Part shown: in pieces, positions 55,127 to 64,000 of the stretch | How positions within the stretch are numbered: position 1 is the first letter of the stretch | How the letters are laid out: the number at the start of each line of letters is the position of its first letter | DNA from: an uncultured Carboxylicivirga sp. | GTDB lineage: Bacteria; Bacteroidota; Bacteroidia; Bacteroidales; Marinilabiliaceae | Assembly: GCA_947503525.1 (NCBI GenBank) | Contig: CANNEA010000002.1 | Coordinates: forward strand, 124,001 to 188,000 | Direction of reading: 5' to 3' | DNA: 64,000 nucleotides | Translations under genes and position numbers: made by a program | Notes under the pieces: generated by a model | Told to the model about the DNA's origin: nothing | Seen by the model: the letters and a program-made list of their open reading frames with translations, nothing else | Databases searched by the model: none

Positions 55127-55258
55127 ACCAACTATAAACCGGTAGCAATAAACACTATCAATAAGCCTTGTTGTAAATTGGCATGTGGCATTTGATAATT
55201 ATTTATAGATTTGAATATTAATCAACGGTTAAGCCCACCATTTACAAATCAAGTTGCT

Positions 55259-56842
55259 ATGAAAAAAAGCTACAATCATTTTACTTTCCTGTTCCTAATT
55301 TTATTGCTGGTTTCATGTCTGAATAGTTCAAAAGAAAGCATAAGGCAACGAGCAGAACGAATCAGTCTGTCTGAAATGCAGAGTGTCACCGAGTTTCTTG
55401 GACATGACCTACTTGAGGGTAGAGCACCCGGAACAAGAGGAGGTGATATGGCTGAAATATATACCAAAAGTTTGTTTAAGTACATGGATATGGACCCGGG
55501 AATTAATAACTCCTACCTCCAGCCTTTTATCATGAAAGGTTTTTCAAACAAAGGTGTTTCATTAATGGCCAATGGCGTAGAATTAGAATATATTGAAGAT
55601 GTAGTGGGCTCATTTACTGTTGAAAAAGAGAACATTGATTTTGCAGCTGATGCTGTTTTTGTTGGTTTTGGTGTAAAGACAGATATTTGGAACTGGGACG
55701 ATTACAAAGATGTGGATGTTGAAAACAAAATAGTCATCACCAGAGTGAATGATCCCGGAATAAACAATCCTGACATTTTTGAAGGTAAAACACTCACCTA
55801 CTTTGGAAGGTGGACCTATCATATTGAAGAAGCTGCACGCAGGGGTGCAAAGGGCATATTATTAATTCATACGGATGAAACAGCTGGTTACGACTGGAAT
55901 GTTGTTAAAAACTCCTGGACCGGAGAAGAATTATTTATTGAATCTGATTTAAAGAACAATCTGCAATTCCGGGGATGGATAAAAGAAAATAGTTTCGAAA
56001 AACTACTCAAAAGTAAAAACCAAAGTCTGGAAGATTTATATAAACATACCAATTCGCCCAACTTTCAGCCGATTGATTTAGCTTTTAAAATACAAGTGGC
56101 AGGTCAAAATACAGTTCGAGATGTGCTTAATAATAATGTGCTTGCTCATATTCAAGGTAAAAGTGATGAACGCATTGTGCTAAGTGCACACCTCGATCAT
56201 TTAGGAAAGGATGACACCAAGGAAGGTGATAATATCTATAACGGTGCAATTGATAATGGAACGGCAGTTGCAGCCATGATGTTGGTGGCCAAAATACTAA
56301 AGGAGCATCAGGATGACTTGCATTATTCCGTTACCATACTCGCTTGTAATGCCGAAGAATCAGGTTTACTGGGTTCGAAATATTATGCTCAAAATACAGA
56401 TAAAAGTAACATTATTGCCAATATCAATTTCGAGTCAACACCCGTTTGGGCAAAATCAAAAAGCATTATGGGCATAGGGGCCCGATTCTCAGAACTGGAA
56501 GAGATTATTAAGCAAATTGCACAGAGGGACCAACTTGAATATTCTAGCTTTTCTTTATCCAATCAAGGACTATTTTACCGCTCCGATCAATATTCATTTG
56601 CTCGCTATGGTGTTCCGGCAGTATGGATTTCGGCGGGTGAAGATGAAATAACCGGAGAAAGAAATTATACTGAATTCTGGAGCAAAGACTATCATACTGT
56701 TAAAGATGAGTACAATCCCGATTGGGAATTAGAGGGTATGCGCCAAACCATTCTTTACGCATTACTACTGATTGAAGAAATTAATCTCAAAAAATCACGG
56801 CTCAAATGGAAAAGTAACTTACCATTTCCCATGGAGAAATAA
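55259..56842 (+). CDS. M28-family zinc aminopeptidase, lipoprotein
   Basis: This exported peptidase of 527 residues has a lipoprotein signal with lipobox LVSC (residues ~17-20), a protease-associated domain insert (about residues 110-250) and the M28 core with zinc ligands in LSAHLDHLG (about 307-315), GAIDNGTAVAAMM, NAEESGLLGSKYY and DYHTVKDEY. M28 enzymes are aminopeptidases or glutaminyl cyclase-like; this type with a PA domain is common in Bacteroidota. A TTG 16 codons upstream is in frame but the ATG at 55259 begins the signal peptide. It ends at a long convergent terminator. Confidence 0.93.
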   Translation: MKKSYNHFTFLFLILLLVSCLNSSKESIRQRAERISLSEMQSVTEFLGHDLLEGRAPGTRGGDMAEIYTKSLFKYMDMDPGINNSYLQPFIMKGFSNKGVSLMANGVELEYIEDVVGSFTVEKENIDFAADAVFVGFGVKTDIWNWDDYKDVDVENKIVITRVNDPGINNPDIFEGKTLTYFGRWTYHIEEAARRGAKGILLIHTDETAGYDWNVVKNSWTGEELFIESDLKNNLQFRGWIKENSFEKLLKSKNQSLEDLYKHTNSPNFQPIDLAFKIQVAGQNTVRDVLNNNVLAHIQGKSDERIVLSAHLDHLGKDDTKEGDNIYNGAIDNGTAVAAMMLVAKILKEHQDDLHYSVTILACNAEESGLLGSKYYAQNTDKSNIIANINFESTPVWAKSKSIMGIGARFSELEEIIKQIAQRDQLEYSSFSLSNQGLFYRSDQYSFARYGVPAVWISAGEDEITGERNYTEFWSKDYHTVKDEYNPDWELEGMRQTILYALLLIEEINLKKSRLKWKSNLPFPMEK

Positions 56843-59500: not shown

Positions 59501-60295
59501 ATGAAAGGAAATAACAATATTCCCTTGTTTCTCGTTGTTCTCAGCCTCATATATAGTATACCTACTCAGGCTCAGAAACAAAAAGACGACGACAACTTTA
59601 CGCCTTACGATCTGCTTACAAGTTATTATGACAATGATTTCAAACCCTTTAAAAAAGGTAATTGGTATGTGGGCTTATCGTTTTCATTGGAAGATAAACA
59701 ACGACTAAATACCCAGGGTTTGTTTCAAAAGGTATTGGATGGTAATAATCTTGATTACAACATCCTATTCAAGGGCGGCTATTATTCGGGTAATTATGGA
59801 ATGGTTGGTCTTGACTTTAATTATTACCAAAGTAAATTTGTGGGAATGGTCTTTCAGGATCCCGATACACTCCAATCCAATTCCATAACCAGAGGTTTTA
59901 ATTTTAGGCCTAACCTTCGCTCATCCATTCCTTTAACGGCCAATGAACGCTTTAGCTTTTTTTATGCCGTAGGTTTAAGTTTTGGGGTAGAAAACACCAA
60001 TGTACGTACCATCAAATTTGAAGATCAAATGTCGAAGCAATTCGCTACGGTGTACAACTTGGGCATCGGACTGAGTCCCGGTATCACTTTTTTCGCCATG
60101 GAAAACTTCGCCTTTGAGGTTCAATTGGATGTACTAGGTTATAATGTAACCATTCAGGAAGCCAAAAAAAATGGTGAAGAACTCTCACGAGACGTTCGAC
60201 ATAATGTCAATTTCAGTATCGATATTCTGACACTAAAACTGGGCCTGGCCTATTATTTTGGCAGTGGCACCAAACGAGGAATAAAAACCAATTAA
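59501..60295 (+). CDS. Outer-membrane beta-barrel protein
   Basis: A 264-residue protein with a signal peptide (to about residue 25, PTQAQ) and about ten amphipathic strands (WYVGLSFSLED, YNILFKGGYYSGNYGMVGLDF, NVNFSIDILTLKLGLAYYFG), so it likely inserts in the outer membrane. It resembles the OmpW/OmpA-type barrel only loosely. It is 10 bases upstream of the PCMD lipoprotein gene and cotranscribed with it. Function unknown. Confidence 0.75.
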   Translation: MKGNNNIPLFLVVLSLIYSIPTQAQKQKDDDNFTPYDLLTSYYDNDFKPFKKGNWYVGLSFSLEDKQRLNTQGLFQKVLDGNNLDYNILFKGGYYSGNYGMVGLDFNYYQSKFVGMVFQDPDTLQSNSITRGFNFRPNLRSSIPLTANERFSFFYAVGLSFGVENTNVRTIKFEDQMSKQFATVYNLGIGLSPGITFFAMENFAFEVQLDVLGYNVTIQEAKKNGEELSRDVRHNVNFSIDILTLKLGLAYYFGSGTKRGIKTN

Positions 60296-60305
60296 ATAGC
60301 CGGCT

Positions 60306-61385
60306 ATGAAAAGCACCATATATATCAGTACACTACTTTTCATCGCCATGCTAAGCGCATGCGTGGGTGAAGATTTCTTTGGCTTATCACCTTATGGTAA
60401 CATTAAAAGCATTGAGGTTTCCAATCAGGCTAGTCAGGCTGTAATTAATACGGATGAACGAACGGTTAGTATTGAAATGCCACCAGGTGTGGATTTAAAT
60501 GAGCTTAGCATCCAGGTGATTAGCCTATCCTCCTTCGCCACTTCTGATAAAGGCATAGGGGATCAACTCAACCTGAATTCAGATGAAGAAATTAAAGTGA
60601 CTGCCGAAAACGGTCAGGTGATCAACTGGACGATCAAGGCTAATATTGCCTCGTCTACACCTCAATTAAAGGATGCCGATTTTAACACCTGGTACCAAAC
60701 CTCGGGTGGCTATTTTGAGCCCGGCGAGAATGCCGAAACTACCATATGGGGTACAGGCAACCCGGGCACTCAGATCCTTAATCTATTAGCTACTACACGT
60801 CTTGAATTGAGCGATGGAAATTATGCCGTTAAGATGGAAACTTTGGATAACGGACCAATAGCAGGCGCCTTTGGAACTCCAATATCGTCGGGTTCAGTGT
60901 TTGCCGGTAAGTTTGATAAGGATAAAATAGATCCATCCAACCCTGAGGCGGCCATCGATTTTGGAACACCCTTTGCCGGACGGCCCAATAAAATGAATGT
61001 TAAGTATCGGTATCAACCCGGTGAAGTGAATAAGGATAAAGATGGCAATGAATTGCCCGATGGCGACCAGTGCGATATCTATGCCTTTTTGGAAGTGCGT
61101 CTATCGGATAAAATTCAACGCCTGGCTACGGCCTGGTTTAGAAGTGGTGATGTGCAAACTGAACTGAAAGACCTTGAGCTGGACTTCACCTATGGTGCAT
61201 TGGATGGGAGCTTCCCGGATTATATGAAACCCGAAAACGGTTTGTATGTCAGTGCGGATTCTGCCAAATTTGTACTACCAACTCATCTCACATTTGTGGC
61301 TTCTTCAAGCTTTGCAGGTGCCCAGTTTGCCGGTGCCATTGGCAGTGAATTAGTTGTTGATGATGTGGTATTGATATACGAGTAG
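60306..61385 (+). CDS. PCMD-domain (putative carbohydrate metabolism) lipoprotein
   Basis: A 359-residue surface or periplasmic lipoprotein (lipobox LSAC about residues 15-18). An Ig-like beta domain (about 30-110, IKSIEVSNQASQAVINTDE) precedes the PCMD domain (about 115-355), marked by LKDADFNTWYQ, the SSGSVFAGKF core and the closing LTFVASSSFAGAQFAGAIGSELVVDDVVLIYE. PCMD proteins occur near carbohydrate loci of Bacteroidota, and their exact role is unknown. Immediately downstream of the barrel gene; the two may form an outer-membrane pair. Confidence 0.86.
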   Translation: MKSTIYISTLLFIAMLSACVGEDFFGLSPYGNIKSIEVSNQASQAVINTDERTVSIEMPPGVDLNELSIQVISLSSFATSDKGIGDQLNLNSDEEIKVTAENGQVINWTIKANIASSTPQLKDADFNTWYQTSGGYFEPGENAETTIWGTGNPGTQILNLLATTRLELSDGNYAVKMETLDNGPIAGAFGTPISSGSVFAGKFDKDKIDPSNPEAAIDFGTPFAGRPNKMNVKYRYQPGEVNKDKDGNELPDGDQCDIYAFLEVRLSDKIQRLATAWFRSGDVQTELKDLELDFTYGALDGSFPDYMKPENGLYVSADSAKFVLPTHLTFVASSSFAGAQFAGAIGSELVVDDVVLIYE

Positions 61386-61558: not shown

Positions 61559-61978
61559 TTAAAAACATTTAGCTTTGTCTTTAATAGGCGTCCAGTTTCC
61601 CTCAGGATCTATTTCAAAGGTCACAGCAATTATATAGTGCGTGCCCATATTGCCCACATAGTTTTGGTGAAAGGTAAAATAATTCGTTTCGCCAGGTTGA
61701 TTTATTACATGCCTGCTGAATTGAGATACTTTAAATACTTCACCTGTTCGTTTAGAAACAACCTCGGCTTTAACTGTAGCTTTAACCCATTCAACATAGC
61801 CATCTTTGTTAAAGTGAGTTGCTTGAGTACCTGTAAATTCGCCACTAAGGTAATCCGAATCACACTCATACATTGTTCTTTCCCAGAATCCTCCTATTTT
61901 TTCCACAACAGTTTGCGCAGGTGAAGAAAATGTAAAAAAGGAAACCAATAGTCCTGCAATTAATAACTTAACTTTCAT
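61559..61978 (-). CDS. Hypothetical secreted protein (139 aa)
   Basis: This protein carries a signal peptide (MKVKLLIAGLLVSFFTFSSPAQ) followed by a beta-rich domain (WERTMYECDSDYLSGEFTG, ATVKAEVVSKRTGEVF, YFTFHQNYVGNMGTHYIIAV). Two cysteines (near the start of the mature chain and at the penultimate position, AKCF) might form a disulfide. I do not recognise a family. It is the last chromosomal gene before the tRNA-associated integration site. Confidence 0.6.
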   Translation of the reverse strand: MKVKLLIAGLLVSFFTFSSPAQTVVEKIGGFWERTMYECDSDYLSGEFTGTQATHFNKDGYVEWVKATVKAEVVSKRTGEVFKVSQFSRHVINQPGETNYFTFHQNYVGNMGTHYIIAVTFEIDPEGNWTPIKDKAKCF

Positions 61979-62198
61979 CAGAATTGTTTTTAGATTAATA
62001 ATTTATTGGAGCTAAAAGGATACACAAGTTACGATATGTGGAGACCGAGCACAATGCGAAAACGATATTATTTGCTAATTAAAGGATTAAATATCTCTTT
62101 GGAGAATCCTGAACAATCTTGAAAATGCCAATGAAAGCGTCTTTATCATTTTTTACTTCCCTGTAATTCGAAAGCAAGCTTTCTATTTAGGGAAATAA

Positions 62199-62225
62199 AA
62201 AATGCCCGGCAAAACCGGGCATTTT
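62199..62225 (-). terminator. Ancestral tRNA-Ser terminator
   Basis: An 11-bp stem (aaaatgcccgg / ccgggcatttt) with a 5-base loop; read on the minus strand it follows the tRNA 3'-end remnant by five bases and runs into TTTTTTA. It is where the terminator of the interrupted tRNA gene would be. Confidence 0.85.
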
Positions 62226-62230
62226 CTTTT

Positions 62231-62251
62231 GCGGAGAGAGGGAGATTCGAA
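62231..62251 (-). other. tRNA-Ser 3'-end fragment, probable attL core
   Basis: Read on the minus strand the 21 bases hold TTCGAATC (T-loop), the T-stem 3' half CTCCC, the acceptor 3' half TCTCTCC and discriminator G, as at the 3' end of a bacterial tRNA-Ser. The bases on the 5' side of the T-loop (GAACA) do not pair with CTCCC, so the homology stops there and no intact tRNA exists. A tyrosine recombinase begins about 170 bases away. This is the usual footprint of integration into a tRNA gene; the intact tRNA should lie at the other end of the element. Confidence 0.75.
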
Positions 62252-62419
62252 TGTTCCATTGAAGCACATTGAAACAAGTTATAAAAACATACTTTATGAT
62301 CTCTATACTAGCTTTTTAAAAAATTTATGTGTTGAATAAAGTTGAAAGAAATGGAATATAATTGTATATTGGTTGACTAATGGTTGACTTATTTGTTTAA
62401 AGCTTAAAAAATACTAGCC

Positions 62420-63712
62420 ATGGCAACTTTAAAATATATACTCCAAGGAACAAAATCAGTACGCAACATTTACGTTCGATTGTCGCTTGAACGAGGTAAA
62501 GTTTTTAAGCGTAAAACAGCCTATTCAATTAATAAAGGTAGTTGGAGTATTAAAAAGGCGGAACCCATCCAGCGTGATGGGGAGTTGAAAGAATTAAAAA
62601 GCAATCTTGACGAATTGAAGAATCATTTATATGATAAGATCAATGAAGCAACAGCAAACAAGGTTATTGTTGATGGGGCATGGTTACAATCACAATTAAA
62701 TCTTTATCACGAGAAAGTACAAGAGGAGGATGAAAACCTTCTGGTCGTCCGTTTTGAACACTATATAAAAGAATTAAAATTTAAACGCCATCCCTCACGT
62801 AATACTCCCATTACAAAAGCAACGATTACAAAGTATAATACGATTAAAAAAAAGTTGATTGCCTTTGAGAAATTGGAAAAGAAGTCATTTAGGGTAAGGG
62901 ATGTTGATTTGGCATTCAGAACGAATTTTATAAGATATTTGGAAAATGTTGAAAAGATTAGCGATAATACCATTGGACGGTATATATCCGTAATCATAAC
63001 TGTATGTCGAAACGCTAAACTATACGGTATTCAAACAAATACGCAACTTGAAGCTGTAAAAGCTTTTAGCAATGAGGTAAATAAAATATACTTTTCATTT
63101 GAAGAATTGGAGAAAATCAGGCAAGCAGACCTCGACTCTTACGCTTTGAATAACTCTAGAGATTGGCTGCTGATTGGCTGTTTTATCGGGCAACGTGTTT
63201 CAGATCTATTAACCTTAACAACAACGAATATCGTTAATAAAAAGGGAATCACTCTGATAATGGTTCGCCAGCAAAAAACCCATAAGGATGTTTATATTCC
63301 ATTGCACCCAATTGTTCAGGAAATTTTAGATAAGCGTCATGGTCATTTTCCTGATCAAATAGCCGACCAGACTTTTAACATCAATATTAAAAAGGTTGCG
63401 AAACAAGCCGGCATAATAGAGCCAACTCATGGAGGTGTGATAGAAATGGTTGAAGTAAAAGGTAAGGCCAAGCCTCGCAAAATATATGGCGTTTATCCCA
63501 AGTGGCAATTGATTACGTCACACATTTGTCGCCGGTCCTTTGCATCAAATTTCTATGGAGAGATGCCCACTTACTTAATCAAGACTATCACTGGTCATGC
63601 TTCAGAAAATCAATTCTACAAATATGTCGGAAAGCCTCCGCTTGATCACGCGGAAGAAATGGCCAAATACTTGAATAGTATACATCAAAAACAAAATCAG
63701 ACAACAAGCTAA
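62420..63712 (+). CDS. Tyrosine recombinase / site-specific integrase
   Basis: A 430-residue integrase of the Bacteroidota mobile-element type: an arm-binding N-terminal domain (about 1-100), a SAM-like core-binding domain (about 105-215) and the catalytic domain (about 225-405). Catalytic residues are visible: Arg259 in GQRVSDLL, Lys286 in QQKTHKD, His368 and Arg371 in HICRRSF, His393 in TGHASEN and the nucleophile Tyr402 in FYKYVG. It is adjacent to the tRNA-end fragment and transcribed away from it into the element. The catalytic set is complete, so it is likely functional. Confidence 0.94.
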   Translation: MATLKYILQGTKSVRNIYVRLSLERGKVFKRKTAYSINKGSWSIKKAEPIQRDGELKELKSNLDELKNHLYDKINEATANKVIVDGAWLQSQLNLYHEKVQEEDENLLVVRFEHYIKELKFKRHPSRNTPITKATITKYNTIKKKLIAFEKLEKKSFRVRDVDLAFRTNFIRYLENVEKISDNTIGRYISVIITVCRNAKLYGIQTNTQLEAVKAFSNEVNKIYFSFEELEKIRQADLDSYALNNSRDWLLIGCFIGQRVSDLLTLTTTNIVNKKGITLIMVRQQKTHKDVYIPLHPIVQEILDKRHGHFPDQIADQTFNINIKKVAKQAGIIEPTHGGVIEMVEVKGKAKPRKIYGVYPKWQLITSHICRRSFASNFYGEMPTYLIKTITGHASENQFYKYVGKPPLDHAEEMAKYLNSIHQKQNQTTS

Positions 63713-63725
63713 AGTCCTTGATATT

Positions 63726-64000
63726 ATGCACAAAGATCAGAAGACATGCCAAGAATTATTGACCGAATTAACTATTTCAGCAATAGTATATGCCGAAAGT
63801 ATTCAAGATTGGTACGCTGCGGAAGACCCTGACCGTCCGCAATCGTTTCTAAGCCATGAACCCAATCTAGACTCTTTATTTATAACCCTTTATAAAAAGA
63901 GCCATAAAGAATCTTTTTTCTGGCAATATTGCACCATGTCTGTATATGAGGCTTATTATGAGACGCGATTAAAAGAATATCTGGAAGATTTCCCTGATTC
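63726..64000 (+). CDS. Partial hypothetical gene of the integrated element
   Basis: An open frame starts with ATG at 63726 (MHKDQKTCQELLTELTISAI), 13 bases after the integrase stop, and runs without a stop for at least 91 codons to the window edge. It is acidic and rich in aromatic residues (WYAAEDPD, FFWQYCTMSVYEAYYE). I recognise no domain from this part. It is the first cargo gene visible in the element, possibly cotranscribed with the integrase. Confidence 0.6.
   Translation, partial: MHKDQKTCQELLTELTISAIVYAESIQDWYAAEDPDRPQSFLSHEPNLDSLFITLYKKSHKESFFWQYCTMSVYEAYYETRLKEYLEDFPD

Follow-up and report, generated by a model that had tools for sequence, protein, structure and literature searches.

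Two probable tandem mobile elements with very different integrases behind a single tRNA-Ser(GGA) gene in an uncultured Carboxylicivirga

Tandem integration has reportedly been seen with the genomic island SGI1. Another group of islands or satellites that target gene ends is represented by the PICIs, and the available part of one account of these (PMC10111431) describes a doubled motif close to the att site, of which each helper-embedded satellite has two copies. To the extent that this account goes, tandem islands of the PICI and SGI1 kind have in common with the locus described here an integrase, an attP that replaces the end of the target gene and related att sites between the units. Unlike PICIs and SGI1, the two elements that we delineate, termed A and B, have two very different integrases (21% identity), share a single tRNA-Ser, belong to Bacteroidota, and carry a polysaccharide-utilization locus and defence genes. 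A further point of comparison is phage YA3, which integrates in a tRNA-Ser of Pseudomonas aeruginosa with the gene being rebuilt, as at our locus; however, in the available part of its description YA3 is a temperate phage with an attB/attP identity of 64 bases, whereas the cores of A and B span 15-21 bases (PMC7326022). From the gut microbiome, 47 loci that contain SusC and SusD and are carried by mobile elements have been described (PMC6907783, available in part), and element B likewise places a SusC/SusD locus on a mobile element. Its host, in contrast to those of the gut loci, is a member of Marinilabiliaceae, and the main text of that study, as available, does not use the word tRNA. A literature search over titles and abstract openings, with partial coverage, returned no description of tRNA-linked polysaccharide-utilization islands in marine or Marinilabiliaceae genomes.

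The stretch analysed here, the window, comprises 64,000 nucleotides of contig C2 of an uncultured Carboxylicivirga genome (G000:C2:124001-188000), such that a window position equals the contig position minus 124000. What appears at its right edge as a bare tRNA fragment resolves into two bounded elements, and thereby into two integrase families with their ends, targets and cargo. We consider it very probable that a single tRNA-Ser(GGA) has received, at its 3' end, a tandem integration of two elements with very different tyrosine recombinases. The separation of a tRNA tail by about 60 kb from its body through two side-by-side mobile elements is a known kind of event; the present case, from a marine bacterium, illustrates a way in which one tRNA hotspot of Marinilabiliaceae can acquire both a polysaccharide-utilization locus and defence genes.

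The displaced tRNA-Ser end and its chromosomal surroundings

The right edge of the window contains the following features:

62199..62225, minus strand: predicted ancestral intrinsic terminator of tRNA-Ser(GGA), stranded on the chromosomal side (palindrome in the sequence, fixed terminator rule, match to the flank in relative G015)
62231..62251, minus strand: displaced 3' end of tRNA-Ser(GGA), forming the distal attachment core of element A; a copy of C2:246215-246235
62372..62389, plus strand: doubled arm-type repeat GTTGACTAATGGTTGACT (18 bases), next to integrase A
62420..63712, plus strand: tyrosine recombinase A, 430 aa (Pfam PF13102 and PF00589; PHROG integrases)
63726..64000, continuing to C2:188484, plus strand: first cargo open frame of element A, 252 aa, with no Pfam or PADLOC family

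A tRNA-Ser-like 3' end had been proposed here by the first-pass annotation, and direct reading of the sequence places the 21-base core, GCGGAGAGAGGGAGATTCGAA, at window 62231-62251, so that its coordinates were right to the base. The complete tyrosine recombinase predicted within 170 bases of it is also present, with a frame (62420-63712) that starts at a distance of 169 bases. This protein has the presumed motif matches GQRVSDLL (257), HICRRS (368) and GHASENQFYKY (392). No relatives of integrase A were recovered in viral contigs, and a search against the PDB gave no hits at E 0.01. ARAGORN detected no tRNA genes in the 64-kb window. An exact copy of the 21-base core is found 59,984 bases downstream, at C2:246215-246235, where it constitutes the 3' end of an intact gene:

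C2:246215-246302, minus strand: intact tRNA-Ser(GGA), with tRNA-Trp upstream

An intact tRNA-Ser with the same end had been expected within about 150 kb, and this one, 60 kb on and in the same orientation, answers to that expectation. The identity ends at 21 bases, the next base being T at the displaced end and A at tRNA-Ser(GGA). A search of the whole genome with a 22-mer, allowing up to 3 mismatches, returned 5 places as against 0 for a reversed-pattern control. These are the displaced fragment, the tRNA-Ser genes for GGA (C2:246214), GCT (C4:456987) and UGA (C5:78321), and C5:110331, where the tRNA-Ser(UGA) end recurs exactly in the absence of a tRNA gene. Slightly upstream of the intact gene (L009:18355-18385, C2 ~246.36 kb), 15 bases of the tRNA-Ser 5' end are duplicated (CTCTGTCACCTCTCC), and this duplicate is perhaps debris of an older event.

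The palindrome at 62199-62225 was not listed by a terminator scan tool, which reported 0 terminators for window 61900-62500; it is detected by the fixed rule described below. It aligns with the flank of the undisplaced tRNA-Ser(GGA) in the relative G015, with 34 of 41 bases identical and none of 500 shuffles scoring as high, and found no match in the 9 other flanks compared (7 from relatives without integrase B and 2 integrase-B sites). Judged by its sequence, it is the ancestral terminator of tRNA-Ser(GGA), and its presence behind the undisplaced gene in G015 upholds the earlier proposal that it marks the chromosomal side. One might alternatively regard the fragment as the decayed remnant of a native tRNA-Ser copy that has nothing to do with the neighbouring integrase, given that the 15-base duplicate near C2:246.36 kb attests to the existence of tRNA-Ser debris. 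However, relatives of integrase A display a terminator, a tRNA-like end, arm repeats and an integrase in the same order at other tRNAs (see below), and the terminator matches the native tRNA-Ser(GGA) flank in G015. In light of this end structure and flank match we reject native decay, whose probability we regard as very low.

Three relatives of the same genus (G001, G002 and G006) have tRNA-Ser(GGA) beside tRNA-Trp and the same neighbouring gene (C2:246798-247682 in our genome). We compared gene order with these relatives at 45% identity over half the length. On the opposite side of the tRNA, a variable stretch of ~31 kb (G006), ~38 kb (G001) or 111 kb (G002) precedes the point at which the gene order of our window is regained; in our own genome this stretch measures ~65 kb. 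In G006 the order resumes at window 55211-56842 (56.8 kb), a gene that we take to be M28-like; in G001 and G002 this gene found no match, and the order resumes with those to the left of window 55.1 kb. The intervening 5.4 kb, from window 56.8 kb to the displaced terminator, matched nothing in the stretches from G001, G002 and G006, and may represent older insertions or lineage-specific chromosome. Of the uninterrupted site, the tRNA side is seen in the G015 flank; on the left chromosomal side synteny is lacking in G001, G002 and G006, and no genome with exactly our left flank joined to tRNA-Ser(GGA) was found among the relatives compared. To the left of the displaced tRNA end, window 59501-61385 holds a 264-aa open frame and a PCMD-domain gene.

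Two units between the cores and their relatives

A scan between the outer cores revealed a third core, GCGGAGAGAGGGAGAACTGAA, at C2:206468, which agrees at 18 of 21 positions, 15 of them in an unbroken row; the runner-up in the same interval reaches 14 of 21. The arm-type repeat GTTGACTAATGGTTGACT recurs just inside it, at C2:206392-206409. Because of this third core and the presence of GTTGACTAATGGTTGACT at both ends of A, the elements were bounded as follows:

C2:186231-206467: element A, 20.2 kb, with the integrase at the left, tRNA-distal end
C2:206468-246214: element B, 39.7 kb, abutting the tRNA, with the integrase at the right, tRNA-proximal end

The view that an element had inserted in the 3' end of a tRNA-Ser is supported, with the refinement that the tRNA at the far end borders a second, neighbouring element, so that the 60 kb consist of two units. 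As in tRNA-integrating genomic islands, a tyrosine recombinase adjoins an att core in A as well as in B, and a direct repeat of the tRNA 3' end is seen at both junctions, with the intact tRNA at one. The GC content of A and B (0.366 and 0.382) is close to that of the flanks (0.369 and 0.370); hence, it is the att anatomy rather than composition that reveals the elements.

Integrase A is matched at E 1e-60 or better in 7 of 71 family genomes (our own included). The matches fall in 8 places; those in relatives number 7 and have 38-46% identity. Upstream of the integrase these relatives have, by eye, a hairpin with a T run and a tRNA-like end, except that L076 begins too close to its contig end for the hairpin to be visible; a doubled repeat comparable to GTTGACTAATGGTTGACT was likewise recognized by eye in 6 of the 7. 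In 4 of the 7 the second core is the exact 3' end of an intact tRNA, namely Arg CCU, Leu CAA (twice) and Leu UAG. In L148 the second core is not at a tRNA and a further integrase lies between the cores, in L149 the contig ends in the core, and in L145 no second end was found in the stretch fetched.

Integrase B is matched at E 1e-60 in 34 of the 71 family genomes, again counting our own. Among 295 genomes drawn evenly from the order, E 1e-130 is reached only in our own and in a single further genome, likewise a member of the family. Named records with integrases at least 80% identical to B come from Carboxylicivirga, Labilibacter, Saccharicrinis, Plebeiobacterium and other Marinilabiliaceae; G007 and G009 are of the same genus as our genome. 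Among 17 examined loci with at least 66% identity, 12 hold a tRNA-Ser, either UGA or GGA, the weaker relatives L099-L111 being left out of this tRNA scan. We inspected 23 B-type stretches of 2 to 66 kb, two of them under 5 kb, of which 2 are our own and 21 come from relatives. A proximal core is present in 19 of the 23; of the 4 without it, two begin 237 and 267 bases from the integrase, approximately at the expected site of the core. The distal signature TTCA[G/T]TTC...CCGC was seen in 9 of the 23, that is, in element B and in 8 others.

These recurring ends bear on whether the 60 kb could be a single element with integrases at both ends, bounded by the 21-base cores, with the third core being a product of chance or decay. 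The outer cores are indeed identical over 21 bases and the inner core over only 15 in a row, or 18 in all, which favours this reading. However, the inner core is situated exactly where the second arm repeat and terminator of A end and the distal signature of B begins, 8 other B-type stretches end with this same signature, and 4 relatives of integrase A form units of their own, of ~6 to 8 kb, between core and tRNA. Given the third core and the recurring ends in relatives, we reject the single 60-kb element as very improbable, though somewhat less so than native decay of the fragment, and retain the reading of two elements in tandem.

Three cores, terminator-like hairpins, matching ends in relatives, an ancestral flank and the cargo are direct observations. 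Under the tandem reading, the order along C2 would be chromosome, ancestral terminator, displaced tRNA end, A, third core, B, intact tRNA-Ser(GGA) and tRNA-Trp. Each recombinase is likely to act on the 3' half of the tRNA, i.e. the acceptor and T stem. Recombination would rebuild the tRNA end from the core copy borne by the element, pushing the old end and the old terminator away; as the tRNA-proximal end of the element carries an intrinsic terminator behind its core, the rebuilt tRNA would also gain a new terminator. The terminator-bearing end of A, which by analogy with its relatives would be tRNA-proximal, now faces B. The scheme supposes strand exchange by both integrases and hairpins that would end tRNA transcription in vivo, and the units may still be able to excise.

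A second array is associated with the tRNA-Ser(UGA) of the same genome, at C5:78256-154489 (L140-L143), and reaches beyond 154.5 kb. Adjoining the tRNA is an integrase of 37% identity. A displaced core at 110331 is accompanied by a paralogue of integrase B (94% identical), and behind the distal core at 154468 stands another B-like terminator; within the fetched stretch no match to integrase B was found beyond C5:154468. A paralogue of the PCMD-domain gene mentioned above, 66% identical, is situated inside this array (C5:99732-100799).

Terminators behind the attachment cores

One fixed rule was applied to the 90 bases behind each core on the tRNA strand. The counts omit those B-type loci that lack a tRNA (5 of 17) as well as the integrase A relatives L145 and L149, in which only one end or neither could be placed. 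Intrinsic terminators were detected at the tRNA-proximal ends of 12/12 B and 5/6 A sites (17/18 together), and in the distal flanks of 9/9 B and 5/6 A sites. In element B itself, the hairpin behind the tRNA-proximal core is located at C2:246164-246187. The stretch left of 206468 falls in two of these groups, and 30 of 32 distinct stretches hence pass, as compared with 59 of 2000 random windows (3%). The two misses, L147 distal and L148 proximal, have hairpins that are visible by eye and fall below the rule. Terminators are common behind tRNAs in any case, with 5 of 8 control tRNA-Ser(GGA) flanks without integrase B passing the rule; hence, a hairpin alone proves little, and the evidence lies in its travelling with the element. 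Across the 12 B sites, which come from different genera and two tRNA-Ser genes, the first 60 bases behind the tRNA show a mean identity of 0.83 (66 pairs, lowest 60%), as against 0.29 (28 pairs, highest 40%) for the 8 tRNA-Ser(GGA) flanks without integrase B. This 83% versus 29% indicates that the flank travels with element B and not with the locus.

Element-borne terminators seem to accompany both integrase lineages, very different as these are, and within the B lineage one hairpin is conserved across genera and at both tRNA-Ser(UGA) and tRNA-Ser(GGA). We lean slightly towards the view that a replacement terminator directly behind the attP core is a selected and general part of tRNA-targeting elements. 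If so, integration would be neutral with respect to both the sequence and the transcription of the tRNA, and the terminator would protect the element against read-through from the tRNA; this would contribute to an explanation of tandem stacking. Our literature search (titles and abstract openings, partial coverage) found no description of element-borne tRNA terminators. Their consistent presence may be new. Such elements are known to restore the tRNA gene in which they integrate, and the terminator extends this rule in a simple way that is open to testing.

Cargo of the two elements

All 43 open frames of at least 80 codons between the outer cores were scanned with Pfam, which recognized no relaxase or conjugation genes and no virion or packaging genes in any of the 43; a prophage, ICE or IME was rejected for want of such genes. 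With PHROGs, run on 10 of the 43, the sole virion or packaging name was a weak match (E 0.009) of an HTH protein to a small-terminase family.

Element B encodes an excisionase-like HTH protein, DUF3987 and DUF6371 proteins that are helicase/primase-like by PHROGs, and a Fic-domain protein matching the candidate defence family PDC-S24 (E 1e-186). After the DUF3987 and DUF6371 genes, the gene order is GH130, a sodium:solute symporter, six sulfatases, a hybrid two-component sensor, SusC and SusD, and then an AraC regulator, a mannose-6-phosphate isomerase and the integrase. The Sus pair lies at:

C2:231361-234606: SusC of element B
C2:234625-236214: SusD of element B

The SusC/SusD pair together with the six sulfatases, GH130 and the hybrid two-component sensor constitutes a polysaccharide-utilization locus. 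Its richness in sulfatases, alongside GH130 and the mannose-6-phosphate isomerase, suggests that it is likely to serve a sulfated mannose-containing glycan. Among the 23 B-type stretches, the HTH gene is present in 10 and the combination of HTH, DUF3987 and DUF6371 in 8, while SusC and SusD are both matched in 8; in stretches whose distal end is unseen, any of these matches may fall outside the element. That the B family often carries SusC/SusD loci may be new. Beside the six sulfatases are three proteins of 417, 402 and 804 aa (C2:226446-231344; L008:18446 to L009:3344), which have no Pfam enzyme domain above the cut-off and no PDB relative of their main part, and are possibly unassigned glycan enzymes. 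PDB searches with four unassigned proteins of this locus gave weak matches to the C-terminal end for two and nothing for the other two.

In element A, Pfam identified the three components of a type I restriction-modification system as open frames with their domains:

C2:201061-202644: HsdM
C2:199802-201058: HsdS
C2:195122-197968: HsdR

Its cargo further includes a nucleotidase-like protein and a UzuA-like protein, the latter matched by PADLOC at E 5e-63 and in Pfam by only a sub-threshold GIY-YIG hit. From relatives of integrase A, 10 cargo proteins of four loci were submitted to PADLOC (L145, L147 and L150 being left out), and 4 of the 10 matched strongly or moderately. The matches are to AbiU (L144), to LmuB of Lamassu and a type IV restriction-like protein (L149), and to PDC-S15 (L148); therefore, defence cargo recurs in 3 of the 4 relatives submitted. 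The L148 stretch also has, between its cores and downstream of the further integrase, a protein with a filamentous-phage-type replication domain (L148:11285-12856; Phage_CRI, E 1e-6). Finally, between hsdS and hsdR of element A lies a protein combining an NADase-type discoidin domain and a Hint domain (C2:198518-199717; L007:10518-11717), the N-terminus of which resembles, by eye, a signal peptide.
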